Part shown: piece after piece, positions 26,550-36,611 of the stretch
Layout of the letters: every line of letters starts with the position of its first letter
Numbering within the stretch: position 1 is the stretch's first letter
Origin: Bacteroidaceae bacterium
GTDB taxonomy: Bacteria > Bacteroidota > Bacteroidia > Bacteroidales > Bacteroidaceae
Assembly: GCA_017940185.1 (NCBI GenBank)
Contig: JAGAZE010000018.1
Location: 1-38,032 of the forward strand
Direction: 5' to 3'
DNA length: 38,032 nt
Notes under the pieces: generated by a model
The model's database searches: none
Seen by the model: the letters and a program-made list of their open reading frames with translations, nothing else
What the model was told of the DNA's origin: nothing
Program-made: the position numbers and the translations under genes

Positions 26550-27863
26550 TTATCCGCAGCAGCATTTCTTTTTCTTACCTGCCAGCCGGCGCATGTAAGA
26601 GACGATGAGCAGCACGATGAGCACCACGGCGCAAGCCACCTCCAGCCACGACGCCGAACCCTCATGGCAGCATGCCACGTTGTTGGCCACGGCAAACCAC
26701 TCACGGGGCAACAGTTGATCGATGACAACACCTGTGAGCAGCGCGCCGACGATGATGCTGCCCAGATAGGCCATCAGCGTGCGTGTGCCGAGACGCCGAC
26801 GGATGAGCAGGATGGAAGCGATGTTACATGCCGGCCCCGCCATGAGCATGACGAAGGCAGTGCCTGGCGACAAGCCCTTCAGCATGAGGGCCACGGCAAT
26901 GGGAATGCTGCCCGTGGCGCAGATGTACATAGGCACACTGATGAGCAGCACCAGCAGCATGGAGAGCCACGTGTTGGAAGCAAAGATAGCGAAGAAGTCG
27001 TTGGGCACAAACACCGTAATCAGTGCAGCGACGACCAAGCCCAACACCAGCCAATGCCCGATGTCGTCGAGCATGTCGATAAAGGCATAGCGCAAGGCCG
27101 AAATCAATTTGCCGCCGAACGAAGCGTTGGCCTCCTCCTTCTCCTCATGGCAACAGCAGCAGCACGACTCCTCTTTCTCCTTCTCTTCGTTACCGCAGCA
27201 GCAGCACGACTCCTCTTTCTCCTTCTCCTCGTGACCGCAGCAGCTGCACGACTCCTCTTTCTCCTTCTCTTCATGACCACAGCAGCAGCACGACTCCTCT
27301 TTCTCCTTCTCCTCGTGACCGCAGCAGCAACACGACTCCTCTTTCTCCTTCTCCTCGTGACCACAGCAGCAGCACGACTCCTCTTTCTCCTTCTCCTCGT
27401 GACCGCAGCAGGCATGTTCCGTTGCTTCAGCGTCGTGTGTTTCGGCCTTTCCTTCCCTTTGTGGATATGCCGATGCCGTCAGCACGTTGGCCATTGTTCC
27501 TCCCCCGAGTGCCGTTATCAGCGCGGCAATGGGGCGAATGATGGCCATTGGCAGTCCCATGAGTGAGTAGGTGGCAAGTATGGAGTCGACACCGGTCTGC
27601 GGTGTGGCGATGAGAAAAGCCGTGGTAGCCCCTTTTGATCCTCCTTCCTTATGTAGCGACAGTGCCGTGGGCAGCACACCGCACGAGCACAGCGGCAACG
27701 GGATGCCGAGCAGTGTGGCATAGAGCACGCTGCGCAGCGAGTTGTCGGCAAGATAGTTGGTGTAGAATCGCGCGGGCACGAAGACGTGCATGAGTCCGGC
27801 AAAGAAGAAGCCCAACAGCAGATAGGGCGCCATCTCGGTGATGATGTGAAAAATCTGTTCCAT
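26550..27863 (-). CDS. SO_0444-type Cu/Zn efflux permease with Cys-rich tandem-repeat loop
   Basis: A 437-residue inner-membrane permease made of two homologous membrane halves (about residues 5-132 and 250-430), as in the DUF318/ArsP-like permeases that NCBI names SO_0444 family Cu/Zn efflux transporters. The first half has PLCSCG (C59, C61) in a membrane segment; the second has ICATGSIPIAVAL and AGPACNIASI. The linking loop (about 135-250) is a low-complexity metal-binding array: units of 14 residues, GHEEKEKEESCCCC, six times plus a partial one, with 26 cysteines and 7 histidines. The protein also ends in KKKKCCCG. Role inferred: binding and export of a soft metal ion. ATG 27863 is preferred because a consensus-like promoter lies just upstream; a longer frame from 28034 crosses it. 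Confidence 0.85.
   Translation of the reverse strand: MEQIFHIITEMAPYLLLGFFFAGLMHVFVPARFYTNYLADNSLRSVLYATLLGIPLPLCSCGVLPTALSLHKEGGSKGATTAFLIATPQTGVDSILATYSLMGLPMAIIRPIAALITALGGGTMANVLTASAYPQREGKAETHDAEATEHACCGHEEKEKEESCCCCGHEEKEKEESCCCCGHEEKEKEESCCCCGHEEKEKEESCSCCGHEEKEKEESCCCCGNEEKEKEESCCCCCHEEKEEANASFGGKLISALRYAFIDMLDDIGHWLVLGLVVAALITVFVPNDFFAIFASNTWLSMLLVLLISVPMYICATGSIPIAVALMLKGLSPGTAFVMLMAGPACNIASILLIRRRLGTRTLMAYLGSIIVGALLTGVVIDQLLPREWFAVANNVACCHEGSASWLEVACAVVLIVLLIVSYMRRLAGKKKKCCCG
27129..27410 (-). repeat. 42-bp tandem repeats encoding the Cys/His/Glu loop
   Basis: The sequence CACGACTCCTCTTTCTCC recurs at 27163, 27205, 27247, 27289, 27331 and 27373, an exact 42-bp period, in frame with 14-residue protein units. 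Units differ by a few bases (one His to Asn, one Cys to Ser, several silent), so they are recent but not identical copies. Copy number probably varies between strains. Confidence 0.95.
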
Positions 27864-27888
27864 ATATATAATAGGTATAATGACGCAG

Positions 27889-27919
27889 CGAAAGTAGCGG
27901 GTTGCACACTTGTAGCAAA
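27889..27919 (-). promoter_or_regulatory. Promoter of the Cys-rich permease gene
   Basis: Minus strand TTTG (27919-27916), 19 bp, TACTTTCG (27896-27889): one mismatch from TAnnTTTG, 25 bp before ATG 27863. The rest of the gap to 28037 shows no gene. Confidence 0.6.
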
Positions 27920-28037
27920 GAAAGGATGAGAAAAAGTAGCCGACAATGCAACCCTGTTGCAACTTCAGGTGCGCAAATGCTGTCAGCGTGCCAAGTGTCA
28001 CCCGCTCAGACACCGATGGCGCCTTCGGCAACAACCG

Positions 28038-31304: not shown

Positions 31305-33440
31305 ATGAAGAAAATTGTCTCAACCCTGATGCTACTCTCTGTAGCCATCATGCTCCACGCCATACCGGCCAAGCCCGGACAGTGGAAGACCATCCGTCTC
31401 GCCGACGGCAGCACCCTCCGCGTAGAGCTGCGTGGCGACGAGCACGCCAAATGGTATCAGGCCGAAGACGGACGCATGTTCGTCAAGGCACAGAATGCCG
31501 ACTACTACGTGGCCACCACCACAGCTGCCATACAGCAGAAAGCCATCAAGCATCGCACCACCACCGCCAAGCACTACTCCAAGCGCGCCAAGGCCATGAA
31601 GAAGGCACAGAACCCCATCTTCCAGGGAGCACGCAAGGGACTCATCATCCTGGCACAGTTTCAGGACACCAAGTTCCAAGACGGACACGATGTGGCACTC
31701 TACAACAAGATAGCCAATCAGCTCAACTACAAGGAAAACGGCTTCTACGGCTCCATCAGTGACTACTTCCGCCATCAGAGCAACGGACAGTTTGAACTCT
31801 CCTTCGACGTGAAGGGCGTGGTGACACTGCCCCAGAACATGGCCTACTATGGCGGCAACGACTCCGACGGCGACGACCTGCGCCCGGCGCAGATGGTGAT
31901 AGACGCCCTGGAATCCGTGAAGACAGAGATCAACCTCGCCGACTACGACTGGGACGGCGACGGCGAAGTGGAAGAGGTGTTTGTGCTCTATGCCGGCAAG
32001 GGCGAAGCCAACGGCGGCAGTGCCAACACCGTGTGGCCACACATGTGGTCGGTAGTGGCAGGCACTGGCAACTACTGGACCTACAACGGCTATCGCGTCG
32101 ACACCTATGCCTGCAGCGCTGAGCTCAACGGCTACAACGAACTCGACGGCGTGGGCACCTTCTGCCACGAATTCTCCCACTGCATGGGCTTCCCCGACAT
32201 GTACGACACCAGCTATGGCGGCAACTACGGCATGGGCGAATACGACCTGATGTGCAGCGGTTCCTACAACGGCGAAGGACGCTATCCCGCCAACTACTCG
32301 GCCTATGAGCGCGCAGAGTGCGGATGGATAGAGCTGACAGAACTCACCGGCACAGGCAGCGTCACCAATCTGGCTTGCAGCAACGACCACGGACCCGGAT
32401 ACGTGGTGTACAACCAGGCGCACAAAGACGAGCGCTTCATCATCGAAAACCGGCAGCGCACCGGATGGGATACCTACATACCCCGCTCAGGACTGATGAT
32501 ACACTACATCGACTACGATGCCGCCGTGTGGGAGTACAACATTCCCAACACCATCTGCGACTACTCCTCCTACGCCACACAAGATCCCGACAACGCCGAC
32601 TACTGGCGCAACTACAAGAACGACCACCAGCGCCTGTGCTTCTTCCATGCCGACAACAATGCCAAGAGCGACAACATATACCCCTACGGCGCCAGAGACT
32701 CGCTGACCAACCGTTCCACGCCGGCAGGCAGGCTATACCACGCCAACAGCGACGGCACAAAGTACATGAACATTGCCATCACCAAGATTACCCAAAACTA
32801 CAATGGCACCATGTCGTTCAACTACGCCCCCAGTGAGTCGCGCATTCCGCAGAAGCCCGACCACACCGATGCCCTCTTCTACGAGAGCTTCGACCAGTGT
32901 GCCGGCACCGGCGCATGGGACGGACAGTGGAGCGGCTCGATAGCATCGGCCACCTTCACCCCCGACAACACCGGATGGCAGGCCAACCGCAGCTATGGCG
33001 CACAGCAGTGTGCACGCTTCGGCACCGGCACGGCAGTGGGATCGGCATCGACACCGGAGTTTGAAATCAACGGCACCGCCACCTTCGCCTTCATGGCAGC
33101 GCCATGGGGCAGCGACGGCACCACACTGCGACTCTCCGTGGGAAGCGGCAACGCCACCATCACACCCAATACCTTCACCATGACAGCGGGCGAATGGTCG
33201 ACATTCAACGCCACCATCACAGGAACAGGCAAGGTGCGCATCACCTTCTCGCCCACCAAGCGGCTCTTCCTCGACGAGATAGTGGCCAAAGGCCCGACAC
33301 CCACAGGCATCAACACCATCAACGCCAACGCGAACGCCAACGTGAACAGCTGGTACACCCTCGACGGACGACGCCTCAACGCCAAGCCCACACAGAAGGG
33401 TATCTACCTCAACAACGGCAAGAAAGTGATACTGAAGTAA
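31305..33440 (+). CDS. Secreted M6-family metalloprotease with type IX secretion-like tail
   Basis: A 711-residue exported protease. Residues 1-19 are a signal peptide (MKKIVSTLMLLSVAIMLHA). The M6 (immune inhibitor A-like) catalytic domain spans about 105-440 and holds H288-E-F-S-H292-C-M-G-F-P-D298, the HExxHxxGxxD zinc site, preceded by ADYDWDGDGEVEEVFVLYAG, which looks like a calcium-binding stretch. After SFNYAPSESR a jelly-roll-like domain follows (about 520-665), then the C-terminal tail SWYTLDGRRLNAKPT and KGIYLNNGKKVILK, nearly the same as in the leucine-rich protein at 22440. Probably secreted to the surface or medium to degrade proteins or peptides. Many M6 members occur in oral and gut Bacteroidetes. 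Confidence 0.9.
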   Translation: MKKIVSTLMLLSVAIMLHAIPAKPGQWKTIRLADGSTLRVELRGDEHAKWYQAEDGRMFVKAQNADYYVATTTAAIQQKAIKHRTTTAKHYSKRAKAMKKAQNPIFQGARKGLIILAQFQDTKFQDGHDVALYNKIANQLNYKENGFYGSISDYFRHQSNGQFELSFDVKGVVTLPQNMAYYGGNDSDGDDLRPAQMVIDALESVKTEINLADYDWDGDGEVEEVFVLYAGKGEANGGSANTVWPHMWSVVAGTGNYWTYNGYRVDTYACSAELNGYNELDGVGTFCHEFSHCMGFPDMYDTSYGGNYGMGEYDLMCSGSYNGEGRYPANYSAYERAECGWIELTELTGTGSVTNLACSNDHGPGYVVYNQAHKDERFIIENRQRTGWDTYIPRSGLMIHYIDYDAAVWEYNIPNTICDYSSYATQDPDNADYWRNYKNDHQRLCFFHADNNAKSDNIYPYGARDSLTNRSTPAGRLYHANSDGTKYMNIAITKITQNYNGTMSFNYAPSESRIPQKPDHTDALFYESFDQCAGTGAWDGQWSGSIASATFTPDNTGWQANRSYGAQQCARFGTGTAVGSASTPEFEINGTATFAFMAAPWGSDGTTLRLSVGSGNATITPNTFTMTAGEWSTFNATITGTGKVRITFSPTKRLFLDEIVAKGPTPTGINTINANANANVNSWYTLDGRRLNAKPTQKGIYLNNGKKVILK

Positions 33441-33567: not shown

Positions 33568-33807
33568 ATGACACACCACACCTTCTCACGCATCGTCTGC
33601 CAACTGCTGGCAGCCGTCGTCACCATTCTCGGACTCGGCACATGCAAATGCCATAAGAATGCCGTCGACAACAACGACAAAAAGGAAACGCCCACCATCG
33701 ACCCGCGCGAAGATATCGGACGCGCCGTGGCACTCTACGGAGGACCCAACATGCGTTTCCAACAGCCGGTGAAAGCTCCGGAAGAACCCTCTTCAACAGA
33801 GAAATAA
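33568..33807 (+). CDS. Small LYGGP lipoprotein 1 (radical SAM-associated)
   Basis: A 79-residue lipoprotein: hydrophobic signal QLLAAVVTILGLGT with lipobox Cys26, a charged linker (NNDKKETPTIDPRED), then IGRAVALYGGPNMRF with LYGGP at residues 56-60 and a Pro/Glu tail. It is the first gene of the cassette and ends 12 bp before the radical SAM enzyme. Three further small lipoproteins after that enzyme carry the same LYGGP. Family knowledge: Bacteroidetes radical SAM/lipoprotein systems (I recall TIGR04133 with TIGR04134) pair a SPASM enzyme with short lipoproteins carrying a YGxP motif; modification is predicted, not shown. Confidence 0.88.
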   Translation: MTHHTFSRIVCQLLAAVVTILGLGTCKCHKNAVDNNDKKETPTIDPREDIGRAVALYGGPNMRFQQPVKAPEEPSSTEK

Positions 33808-33819
33808 CCACCCTACCCT

Positions 33820-34896
33820 ATGCACACACGCCTCAGCCTGCGCAAACGTATCGGACTGGAGATACAGCGTAAGTTTCAGCGCGACCTCATCAAGGAGCAT
33901 CCCCTCTACCAGCTCTTCTGGGAATGTACCCTGCGCTGCAACCTGCGCTGTCGGCACTGTGGCAGCGACTGCACCGCCGTGCCCGACACACCCGACATGC
34001 CCGTGGAAGACTTCCTCGGCGTGCTCGACCGCATCGCCACAAAGTACAACCCGCACGACGTGTTCATCATCGTCACCGGCGGCGAACCCCTCATGCGCGC
34101 CGACCTGGAACAATGCGGACGCGCCTTCTACGAGCGCGGATTCCCATGGGGCATCGTCACCAACGGACTGGCACTCACCAAGCAACGCTTCCAAGGCCTG
34201 CTGCAAGCAGGACTGCGCTCGGTGGCCATCAGCCTCGACGGACTGAAGGACAACCACAACTGGATGCGCGGCGTGGAGCAGAGCTTCGACAGTGTAGACC
34301 GCGCCCTCGACATGCTCGTGGCAGAGAAGAGCATCATCTTCGACGTGGTGACATGCGTCACGGAGAAGAACATCGGCCAGCTGCCAGCCCTGCGCCGGTA
34401 TCTCATCGGCAAGGGTGTGCGGCTGTGGCGTCTGCTCACCGTTTTCCCCGTAGGGCGAGGTGCCACCGACCCCATGCTGCGGCTGTCGCCACAACGCTTC
34501 CGCGAGCTGCTCGACTTCATCAAGCTCACACGCCAGCAGGGCCATATTCGTGCCTCCTACGGCTGCGAGGGATTTCTGGGCAACTACGAGTTCGACGTGC
34601 GTGACCACGCCTTCTTCTGCAAGGCTGGCATCACCGTGGGCTCGGTGCTCATCGACGGCAGCATATCGGCATGCTCCAGCATACGCAGCAACTACCACCA
34701 AGGCAACATCTACACCGACGACTTCATCGACGTGTGGGAACAGAAGTTCGCCCCCTTCCGCAACCGGCAGTGGGCCCGCACCGGTGAATGTGCCGACTGC
34801 AAGATGTGGCGCTACTGCAACGGCAACGGACTGCACCTGCGCGACGACCAAGGACGACTGCTGCAATGCAACCTGCACGAGCTGGAGAAAGAATAA
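33820..34896 (+). CDS. Radical SAM/SPASM enzyme of an rSAM-lipoprotein system
   Basis: A 358-residue enzyme. The radical SAM iron-sulfur motif C40-x3-C44-x2-C47 lies in CTLRCNLRCRHCGSDC, and TGGEP at 86-90 binds S-adenosylmethionine; ISLDG at about 137-141 fits the barrel. The C-terminal SPASM region has cysteines 249, 267, 285, 324, 327, 333 and 350 (FFCKAG, ISACSSI, GECADCKMWRYC, LLQCNL), enough for two auxiliary clusters. SPASM enzymes usually modify ribosomally made peptides or proteins. The neighbours are four short lipoproteins that share LYGGP, the likely substrates. I take it for the family NCBI calls TIGR04133 radical SAM/SPASM protein; the number is from memory. The enzyme would act in the cytoplasm before the lipoproteins are exported. 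Confidence 0.9.
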   Translation: MHTRLSLRKRIGLEIQRKFQRDLIKEHPLYQLFWECTLRCNLRCRHCGSDCTAVPDTPDMPVEDFLGVLDRIATKYNPHDVFIIVTGGEPLMRADLEQCGRAFYERGFPWGIVTNGLALTKQRFQGLLQAGLRSVAISLDGLKDNHNWMRGVEQSFDSVDRALDMLVAEKSIIFDVVTCVTEKNIGQLPALRRYLIGKGVRLWRLLTVFPVGRGATDPMLRLSPQRFRELLDFIKLTRQQGHIRASYGCEGFLGNYEFDVRDHAFFCKAGITVGSVLIDGSISACSSIRSNYHQGNIYTDDFIDVWEQKFAPFRNRQWARTGECADCKMWRYCNGNGLHLRDDQGRLLQCNLHELEKE

Positions 34897-34931
34897 TGCT
34901 ACACATACTTCACACCTCAATTACCATAACC

Positions 34932-35168
34932 ATGAAAAAACTGTCCCACAGCCGCCGACACACGCCCATCACTCCCTGGAAATGGCTCTCAGGCCTGGTG
35001 CTCGTCGTCCTCGGGCTTGCCGGCTGCAAGAACAAGGATGCCACCGTGCAGCAGAAGATAGAAGCAGTGGTCGACACCATCGGCATGGAGGAAGACCTCT
35101 ACGGCGGACCCGTGCCCGGCTACTATGAAGAGCCAGACTCTATCATCGAAGAAGCTACAACAGAGTAA
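34932..35168 (+). CDS. Small LYGGP lipoprotein 2
   Basis: A 78-residue lipoprotein: basic start KKLSHSRRHTPITPWKW, hydrophobic LSGLVLVVLGLAG and lipobox Cys32, linker KNKDATVQQKIEAVVDTIGM and EEDLYGGPVPGYYEEP with LYGGP at 56-60, the same residue numbers as in lipoprotein 1. The tail is acidic. It follows the radical SAM gene by 35 bp and precedes lipoprotein 3 by 7 bp. ATG 34932 is chosen because the frame upstream lies in the radical SAM gene and would bury the signal peptide. Confidence 0.88.
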   Translation: MKKLSHSRRHTPITPWKWLSGLVLVVLGLAGCKNKDATVQQKIEAVVDTIGMEEDLYGGPVPGYYEEPDSIIEEATTE

Positions 35169-35175
35169 CCACATC

Positions 35176-35424
35176 ATGAAAAGACTATCCTACAGCCGCA
35201 ACCGACGCCACATGCTCATCAGCACCGTGCTTGCCGCCGTGCTCATCCTGCTCGGACTGCCATCGTGCAAATCGAAAAAAATAGGACGCATCATAGGCTT
35301 GTATGGCGGACCCGACATCAACTACTACCGCAACCAGGAGAAGGCATCGCAACGACAGATGCAAGCCGACAGTACTGCGCTCCAACAACAGCCACCGACA
35401 GCCTCACCATCTAACACCCAATAG
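35176..35424 (+). CDS. Small LYGGP lipoprotein 3
   Basis: An 82-residue lipoprotein starting KRLSYSRNRRHML, very like the start of lipoprotein 2, with hydrophobic STVLAAVLILLGLPS and lipobox Cys31. The motif follows closely: KSKKIGRIIGLYGGPDINYY, LYGGP at 42-46, then a polar Gln-rich tail. Compared with lipoprotein 1 the linker between Cys and motif is short (11 residues against 30). Only two bases separate its stop from the next ATG. Confidence 0.88.
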   Translation: MKRLSYSRNRRHMLISTVLAAVLILLGLPSCKSKKIGRIIGLYGGPDINYYRNQEKASQRQMQADSTALQQQPPTASPSNTQ

Positions 35425-35426
35425 CC

Positions 35427-35651
35427 ATGTACACATTCTTTCGCAAACATCTCGGTGCCGTAGTCAGCACCGGCCTCGCCACACTCCTCACACTGTTGGG
35501 GTTCGCCTCATGCAAAGGCAAGATCATCGGTCGCGACGAGTGCCTCTACGGCGGACCGCCCGAAGCCTACCGCAACCTGCCACCCGCACACAACGACACC
35601 ACACAGGCAGATGCCACACTGCCGACAAAGGCAGAACAGCAACAGGAATAA
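35427..35651 (+). CDS. Small LYGGP lipoprotein 4
   Basis: A 74-residue lipoprotein: YTFFRKHLG, hydrophobic AVVSTGLATLLTLLGFAS, lipobox Cys29, then KGKIIGRDECLYGGPPEAYR with LYGGP at 40-44 and a Thr/Gln-rich tail ending EQQQE. The IGR followed by LYGGP and a nearby Tyr-Arg matches lipoprotein 3. An extra Cys (C39) sits just before the motif, unlike the other three. The dipeptidase gene starts 6 bp after its stop. Confidence 0.88.
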   Translation: MYTFFRKHLGAVVSTGLATLLTLLGFASCKGKIIGRDECLYGGPPEAYRNLPPAHNDTTQADATLPTKAEQQQE

Positions 35652-35657
35652 GTCACC

Positions 35658-36431
35658 ATGAACAAAAAACAGACACTCACCTCCGCCCTGTTGTTTGCAT
35701 GCAGCCTCATTGCCTTGGCATGCCGGCAGGCCCCCTCCCCCACCCCCGCCGCTCCCGTCGAAGCAGTGAGCGACACCCTTCCCACCCAAGCCGACACGCT
35801 GGGCAACCCGCCACACGAAGGATTCGTATATGTGAGAACACTCATCCCCGACGTGATAGAAGACCTTCGCTACTTCACCACCAACAACTTCATGGGCATG
35901 CAGGTCGACGGCTACGAGGCAAACCGTGCCATCCTCAGTCGTGAGGCTGCCACGGCACTGCAGGCTGCCGCCGACGAGCTGAGAGAACAGGACTACGTCA
36001 TCAAGATATTCGATGCCTACCGCCCGCAGAAGGCGGTCGACCACTTCGTGCGCTGGGCAAAGACAAAGGACCAGCGCAACAAGAAGGACTACTACCCCAA
36101 CATAGCCAAAGCCAACCTCTTTCCACGGTATATCGCCACACGCTCCGGACACACCAAGGGCAGCACCATCGACATGACCATCTGCCACAAAGACACCGGC
36201 GAAGAGGTGGACATGGGACAGCACTTCGACTACTTCGGCCCTGCCTCACATCCCGACTTCACAGGCAAGTATCCCGGCGGCGTCATCACACCACAGCACC
36301 ATCAGAACCGCATGCTGCTGCGCAACATCATGATAAAGCACGGCTTCAAGCCCTACGACAGTGAGTGGTGGCACTTCACACTGAAGAACGAACCCTATCC
36401 GAAAACCTGGTTCACCTTCCCCGTGAAGTAG
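35658..36431 (+). CDS. VanX/DdpX-type D-Ala-D-Ala dipeptidase, lipoprotein
   Basis: A 257-residue exported enzyme with a lipobox (SLIALAC, Cys22) and a Pro/Ala/Thr-rich linker to residue 55. The peptidase M15D core has R122 (FDAYRPQ), H165 and D172 in SGHTKGSTIDM and E236-W-W-H239, the zinc ligands and catalytic base of VanX. Such enzymes hydrolyse D-Ala-D-Ala; as a periplasmic lipoprotein it more likely recycles cell-wall dipeptide than gives glycopeptide resistance, since no vanH or ligase gene is near (inference). It is the last gene of the rSAM-lipoprotein cassette, only 6 bp after lipoprotein 4, but lacks LYGGP. A GC-rich hairpin follows. Confidence 0.9.
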   Translation: MNKKQTLTSALLFACSLIALACRQAPSPTPAAPVEAVSDTLPTQADTLGNPPHEGFVYVRTLIPDVIEDLRYFTTNNFMGMQVDGYEANRAILSREAATALQAAADELREQDYVIKIFDAYRPQKAVDHFVRWAKTKDQRNKKDYYPNIAKANLFPRYIATRSGHTKGSTIDMTICHKDTGEEVDMGQHFDYFGPASHPDFTGKYPGGVITPQHHQNRMLLRNIMIKHGFKPYDSEWWHFTLKNEPYPKTWFTFPVK

Positions 36432-36473
36432 CCGATCCGATAAAAGCGCTTCACACGATAACACATATTACCT

Positions 36474-36510
36474 CCGCACCGGCGGCATTCATCCGTTGCC
36501 GCCGGTGCGG
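36474..36510 (+). terminator. 14-bp GC-rich hairpin after the dipeptidase gene
   Basis: CCGCACCGGCGGCA (36474-36487) pairs perfectly with 36497-36510 around a 9-base loop, followed by ATATTTAC. Another small hairpin (GGGCTTTGC with GCAAAGCCC) lies at 36540-36559. Confidence 0.65.
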
Positions 36511-36611
36511 ATATTTACGACACACTCACAACAGTAACAGGGCTTTGCCTGCAAAGCCCGTGCATGTCCGCGGTGTGGCACCCACAAGGATGTCGGCTTG
36601 AAATCACATAG

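Follow-up and report, generated by a model that had tools for sequence, protein, structure and literature searches.

A radical SAM/SPASM cassette with four LYGGP lipoproteins in a relative of rumen Prevotella: candidate splicing of membrane-anchored proteins

The window analyzed here is a stretch of 38,032 nucleotides from a Bacteroidaceae bacterium related to rumen Prevotella (GenBank assembly GCA_017940185.1, contig JAGAZE010000018.1, positions 1 to 38,032). At positions 33568..36431 it contains six genes encoding one radical S-adenosylmethionine (SAM) enzyme with a SPASM domain, four small lipoproteins, and an M15 peptidase. All four lipoproteins contain the motif LYGGP, which reads as the local version of a more general form, X-Y-G-x-P-x3-aromatic, found beside related enzymes. 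The explanation considered most likely, with about an even chance of being correct, is that a splicease-like enzyme would convert such lipoproteins to lipid-anchored ketoamide proteins. All six genes are located on the + strand and are separated by gaps of 12, 35, 7, 2, and 6 bp, as read directly from the sequence; the coordinates thus agree with an earlier note on this DNA, which had described a six-gene cassette with gaps of 2-35 bp. The M15 gene is likely located on the same transcript. The genes, and a hairpin after the last of them, are as follows.

33568-33807, + strand: lipoprotein 1, 79 amino acids, signal ending in LGLGTC, contains IGRAVALYGGPNMRF; candidate substrate.
33820-34896, + strand: radical SAM/SPASM enzyme of family TIGR04133, 358 amino acids; candidate modifying enzyme.
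34932-35168, + strand: lipoprotein 2, 78 amino acids, signal ending in LGLAGC, contains IGMEEDLYGGPVPGY.
35176-35424, + strand: lipoprotein 3, 82 amino acids, signal ending in LGLPSC, contains IGRIIGLYGGPDINY.
35427-35651, + strand: lipoprotein 4, 74 amino acids, signal ending in LGFASC, contains IGRDECLYGGPPEAY.
35658-36431, + strand: M15 D-Ala-D-Ala dipeptidase-like protein, 257 amino acids, with its own lipoprotein-type signal.
36473..36511, + strand: GC-rich hairpin after the last gene, -34.5 kcal/mol, z -8.2.

The hairpin is a possible end of the transcript; it lacks a clear T run and is missing from the + strand output of the consensus scan.

The radical SAM enzyme carries the Pfam domains Radical_SAM and SPASM and matches TIGR04133 with 565.1 bits (curated cut-off 425) over model positions 1-349 of 350. 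It is a full member of this family, as the earlier note had suggested. TIGR04133 (rSAM_w_lipo) and TIGR04134 (radical SAM-associated putative lipoprotein) are hypothetical equivalogs in NCBIfam. The companion assignment of the lipoproteins to TIGR04134 did not hold: lipoproteins 3 and 4 scored 18.6 and 20.2 bits (cut-off 39.8), and lipoproteins 1 and 2 gave no match to this model at E≤1. For lipoprotein 1, no NCBIfam or Pfam match of any kind was found at E≤1, and the sole matches of lipoprotein 2 were sub-threshold ones to unrelated models (E 0.17 and 0.26). The TIGR04134 proteins tested (loci L003 and L271) contain the same YGxP as the window lipoproteins; the latter differ in being short, present in four copies, and devoid of the carboxypeptidase-regulatory-like domain, for which the relatives show weak, sub-threshold Pfam matches. 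TIGR04133 enzymes were found in 94 of 393 sampled genomes of the order (all at least 80% complete) and in 105 of 398 genomes of the genus (E≤1e-80). Parabacteroides distasonis also has a member of the family. A plasmid record from the spirochaete Treponema saccharophilum contains a TIGR04133/TIGR04134 pair with a CYGMP lipoprotein (L271, 3613-5089), which suggests transfer between phyla. In phage records and viral contigs, distant radical SAM matches at most were found.

Direct reading confirmed that LYGGP is kept by all four small proteins. In each of them it is part of an extended form, I-G-[R/M]-x3-L-Y-G-G-P-x3-[Y/F]. A lead with IG therefore exists, as the earlier note had described; its wording of an IGR or acid-rich lead is corrected to IG[R/M]x3 in all four. 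In the whole genome (2.09 Mb), the codon pattern for LYGGP has six matches, four of them in the cassette, and the backward pattern has none. The two matches outside the cassette are in an open reading frame (ORF) for an L,D-transpeptidase, discussed below, and in a frame of 32 codons that does not resemble a gene. The nearest relative found, L061, has an enzyme 87% identical to that of the window and three shared lipoproteins; a counterpart of lipoprotein 3 was not found at the same place. In the three shared proteins, the 45 motif columns contain 0 amino-acid and 13 synonymous differences, and 85 of the 186 columns outside the motif are changed. This pattern indicates that the motif is under purifying selection between near relatives.

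The association of enzyme and motif was surveyed with a profile of ten family members. In total, 243 radical SAM ORFs were found and dereplicated by shared 6-mers to 215; this set was drawn from collected loci, a part of the listed matches, and a few of its members are below the curated TIGR04133 cut-off. The pairing, the motif, the selection on it, the signal-peptide conservation, and the enzyme similarity were computed directly. With a strict signal-peptide filter, 90 of the 215 enzymes had no partner; this filter was replaced by a looser one, which left 28, and then by inspection. With the loose filter, 165 enzymes had YG.P in a lipoprotein-like ORF on the same strand and no more than 2.5 kb away, and 22 more had Y[GA].{1,2}P in such an ORF. 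Together with 17 cases found by inspection, 204 of the 215 enzymes (187 by pattern) have a nearby same-strand protein with XY[GA]. The inspected partners include six without P at +3 or +4 (L155, L175, L181, L187, L194, and L214), one with P at +5 (L255), one missed through overlap (L139), one cut by a contig end (L119), seven with another signal, an anchor, or none (L149, L157, L162, L063, L260, L008, and L166), and the in-frame fusion of L067 described below. Among lipoprotein-like ORFs on the same strand and within 1.5 kb of the enzymes, 215 of 403 contain YG.P, versus a mean of 6.0 and a maximum of 14 when the mature parts were shuffled 200 times; chance may therefore account for a few pattern hits. 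The same pattern was found in 6 of the 182 other lipoprotein-like ORFs of these loci. Two or more motif lipoproteins are present in 41 of 186 motif cassettes, and three cassettes have five; tandem multiplication of substrates, which the earlier note had considered unusual, is thus a recurrent feature. In L110 (6116-7263), a TIGR04133-type gene precedes the genes of two lipoproteins that contain YGPPP and a TonB_C domain.

Motif statistics were collected for 246 lipoproteins of the 186 cassettes, within 1.5 kb of the enzyme, and are conditioned on the search pattern (Y fixed, G or A next, P at +3 or +4). The residue after Tyr is Gly in 98% and Ala in 2% of the partners, and Pro is at +3 in 88%. 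The residue X before Tyr is E (28%), M (17%), C (17%), L (15%), V (12%), K (6%), or A (3%); in 40 of the 246 partners it is the lipobox Cys itself. Literal LYGGP is found in only 10 of the 246, 7 of which come from the window or from L061. Loss of LYGGP from orthologous cassettes had been named by the earlier note as what would refute its interpretation; L and the second G do vary, and Y, G, and usually P persist. Partners without P keep Y and G/A (CYGTDKD, CYGTAYD). Among 192 lipoprotein-like ORFs near the enzymes with an LG-type signal, 172 have Y[GA].{1,2}P, 9 have Y[GA] only (some of these being non-partners), and 11 have neither; in none of these 11 is the motif Y replaced by F, W, or H. 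The region behind the motif has nothing recognisable, weak matches to a carboxypeptidase-regulatory-like domain, or TonB_C. As the conserved part of the partners, under purifying selection between near relatives, the motif is well founded as the modification or recognition site proposed earlier.

YGxP could serve as a recognition element, and it might be a mere docking or partner-binding site, the lipoproteins being unmodified there. However, the partners vary freely outside the motif and the domain that follows differs between cassettes, so that little else in them could be the substrate site. One enzyme and its lipoprotein are fused in frame, which also argues against docking alone; the docking-only explanation is quite improbable. 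The fused pair is a single open frame in Prevotella aff. ruminicola Tc2-24 (L067, 4992-6563), running from the radical SAM enzyme into an EYGTP lipoprotein, and represents either a natural fusion or a lost stop.

An aromatic residue is found at +7 from Tyr in 71% of 243 partners, including all four window proteins; no other offset from +2 to +15 exceeds 20%. Enzymes with SPASM domains are known for cross-links, and this sharply placed residue would fit a link between the motif Tyr and the +7 aromatic in Y-G-x-P-x3-[Y/F], giving a short cyclic loop stabilised by a Pro turn. Such a link is unlikely: the aromatic is missing in about 29% of the partners, and a precursor of the splicease family from Nostoc, described below, has F at the same position, so the residue can be read as a recognition residue. 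Two other known chemistries were rejected. In three-residue cyclophanes, an aromatic residue is joined to the Cβ two residues on, and the window proteins have Gly at the required position. A sactionine was rejected as well, given that three of the four window lipoproteins have no Cys within 6 residues before or 8 after Tyr. A lipoprotein surface-export signal, which is an acidic stretch after the Cys, was rejected too: the partners are no richer in acidic residues than background lipoproteins (mean 0.78 vs 1.09).

The second conserved part of the partners is the signal peptide. The form LG[FLIVYM] was found in 153 of the 246 partners and in none of 34 background lipoproteins, a small set that was filtered more strictly than the partners. 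The signal peptide may therefore double as the leader for the enzyme.

Spliceases excise tyramine at an XYG site and leave a ketoamide in the chain. The splicease family is TIGR04103, which we take to be equal to IPR026482. The splicease PlpX belongs to IPR026482, according to an excerpt of PMC11002830. The natural targets of PlpXY given in an excerpt of PMC10533398 are MYG and LYG, and the FtsZ tags reported there to work contain PIRPGYGLPI. All four window lipoproteins share the XYG target, in the form LYG. An enzyme from Nostoc belongs to TIGR04103 (853 bits, cut-off 725) and adjoins a Nif11 precursor ending in ALYGLPPELF, which has the Y-G-x-P-x3-[Y/F] form of the window lipoproteins, here with F at +7; a 71-residue protein without a family match is in the PlpY position. 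Clear XYG neighbours were found for six of the 13 enzymes of the splicease group (Nostoc, L263, L265, L261, L286, and L287). The TIGR04103-like enzyme of L263 (1495-3116, - strand) is beside a 165-residue protein ending in LLYGTPPVPLYQAPSK (LYGTPPVP). That of L265 (1468-3599), from a genome of the window's own family, has as its neighbour a protein of 214 residues, a probable multi-site substrate, in which KYGYP is repeated six times, five times as KYGYPC. L261, L286, and L287 have enzymes of the TIGR03913 type beside peptides of the DUF1843 kind with PYG, LYG, LYA, or MYA. These GDL-motif maturases are close to TIGR04103, and YA is also found in a few TIGR04133 partners; unlike the window proteins, the small DUF1843 peptides have no lipoprotein signal in the sequences read.

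The enzymes themselves also show similarity. Among NCBIfam families, TIGR04133 ranks third for two enzymes of the splicease group and fourth for another three. A 33-row tree places TIGR04133 and the splicease group together against five outgroups with support of 100/99; this tree is unrooted, its TIGR04133 stem is long (2.79), and it comes with a long-branch warning. The sequence HCGS at the cluster was found in all 15 TIGR04133 rows, in 10 of the 13 splicease-group rows, and in none of the five outgroups. A change centred on Tyr without splicing, namely epimerisation, hydroxylation, or Cα-Cβ cleavage with a chain break, would fit the invariant Tyr and the similar scores of the window enzyme on several SPASM families. 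The group with the matching substrate motif and the nearest place in the tree is nevertheless that of the spliceases; splicing is therefore favoured over the other Tyr-centred changes, which are somewhat unlikely.

A number of observations weigh against a splicease, in addition to the long-branch warning. On TIGR04103 the window enzyme reaches 103 bits, far below the cut-off of 725; its scores on the TIGR04053, NirJ, AhbD, mycofactocin, and TIGR03913 models are slightly higher. TIGR04133 comes only fourth, after AhbD or TIGR04053, for the enzymes from Nostoc, L265, and Azospirillum. The deep branches are unresolved in a 56-row tree with distant outgroups. The form G[FY][LYF]GxYE before SPASM was found in 13 of 15 TIGR04133 rows, only 4 of 13 splicease-group rows, and none of the five outgroups; conversely, [IV]GY[YF] in the segment before SPASM was found in all 13 splicease-group rows and in none of the TIGR04133 or outgroup rows. 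Seven of the 13 splicease-group rows (L262, L264, L266, L267, L269, L288, and L289) have no clear XYG partner. PlpX works with PlpY, a partner with a RiPP (ribosomally synthesized and post-translationally modified peptide) recognition element; a PlpY-like extra small gene was not seen in the six-gene run, for which no search with models of this element was made. None of the four window lipoproteins matches an NCBIfam leader model (Nif11, nitrile-hydratase-like) at E≤1, whereas the Nostoc precursor does, and the lipoprotein signal peptide is in the leader position instead. Shared descent may equally account for the conservation of that signal peptide. In many partners X is Glu or the lipobox Cys, neither of which is among the M, L, and G cases in the publications consulted. 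The excerpt of PMC10533398 also reports that LYG tags in FtsZ were unmodified and that some tags lack P at +3. Finally, a part of the partners are not lipoproteins, and nine of the 215 enzymes have no nearby partner; L078 and L112 are cut by contig ends near the enzyme.

The earlier note had interpreted the cassette as a ribosomally made, radical SAM-modified, membrane-anchored peptide set with a cell-wall role. This is partly supported; the link to XYG spliceases, the +7 aromatic, and the conserved signal peptide had been overlooked. For the cassette we infer, from sequence, a splicing modification with an inhibitory product. The cytoplasmic enzyme would modify the lipoproteins at the X-Tyr-Gly site prior to export, probably recognising the LG-hydrophobic signal peptide before the Cys as leader together with Y-G-x-P-x3-[Y/F]. 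The chain would be rejoined after excision of tyramine at Tyr, so that X (Leu in each of the window's lipoproteins) acquires an α-keto-β-amino (ketoamide) backbone. Once the lipoprotein is exported and lipidated, the ketoamide would be held at the envelope as a reversible covalent inhibitor of proteases, with X in the P1 position. For spliceotides, excerpts of two publications (PMC11117315, PMC10373908) describe ketoamides as inhibitors of proteases. Variation in X (E, M, C, L, V, K, A) would translate into different targets; more than one X is used in 24 of the 41 cassettes with at least two motif lipoproteins. Directly upstream of the cassette, the window encodes an M6 metalloprotease (31305-33440), which is possibly a target of the system or a mere neighbour; 8 of the 215 related cassettes have a same-strand M6 homologue upstream.

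The M15 peptidase had been taken in the earlier note as a pointer to the cell wall. The protein matches Pfam Peptidase_M15 with 158 bits (cut-off 27) and the VanX model NF033115 with 208 bits, under the cut-off of 320. In a cell-wall system the dipeptidase would be a functional part, and several features are in line with this: its gene follows at 6 bp, it is kept behind the cassette of L061, it is present in two further cassettes of another genus, and an L,D-transpeptidase with a LYGGP tail is encoded elsewhere in the same genome. However, an M15 gene is near only 4 of the 215 cassettes, in two lineages; 149 cassettes are flanked by 2.5 kb or more on each side. This is weak ground for a cell-wall role; the M15 protein is probably a non-core part, an M15-led system was rejected as the general role, and such a function is highly improbable. 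The transpeptidase is a YkuD protein with a lipoprotein-type signal and EELYGGPEEF in its tail (L298, contig C18 of the window genome, 1371-2360, - strand). Of 32 homologous ORFs, 31 lack this tail, the one in the nearest relative among them; the tail is thus attributable to chance or recent gain. As an unlinked substrate the protein was set aside, because one LYGGP outside the cassette is close to chance (rough estimate 0.5 per proteome). The L,D-transpeptidase co-occurs with the radical SAM enzyme (26 of 42 carriers, versus 79 of 356 other genomes), which may reflect relatedness only.

Elsewhere in the window, a membrane-protein-like ORF (26550-28034, - strand) contains tandem repeats of the EEKEKEESCCCCGH type, perhaps for metal binding.

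A literature search for the family names and for radical SAM-associated lipoproteins found no paper; Scott et al. (Chem 2022) may cover the family. Among the papers listed for spliceases and for radical SAM peptides of Bacteroides, none was on this lipoprotein family. For the family as a whole, it is tentatively proposed, at somewhat less than an even chance, that TIGR04133 enzymes are lipoprotein spliceases across Bacteroidales, which would convert XYG sites to α-ketoamides with the signal peptide as leader and X as an interchangeable P1, produce tethered protease traps, and in some cases splice at the lipid-bearing Cys. If splicing is true, gut and rumen bacteria would commonly carry backbone β-amino acids in their envelope lipoproteins, and a signal peptide would do the work of a leader.

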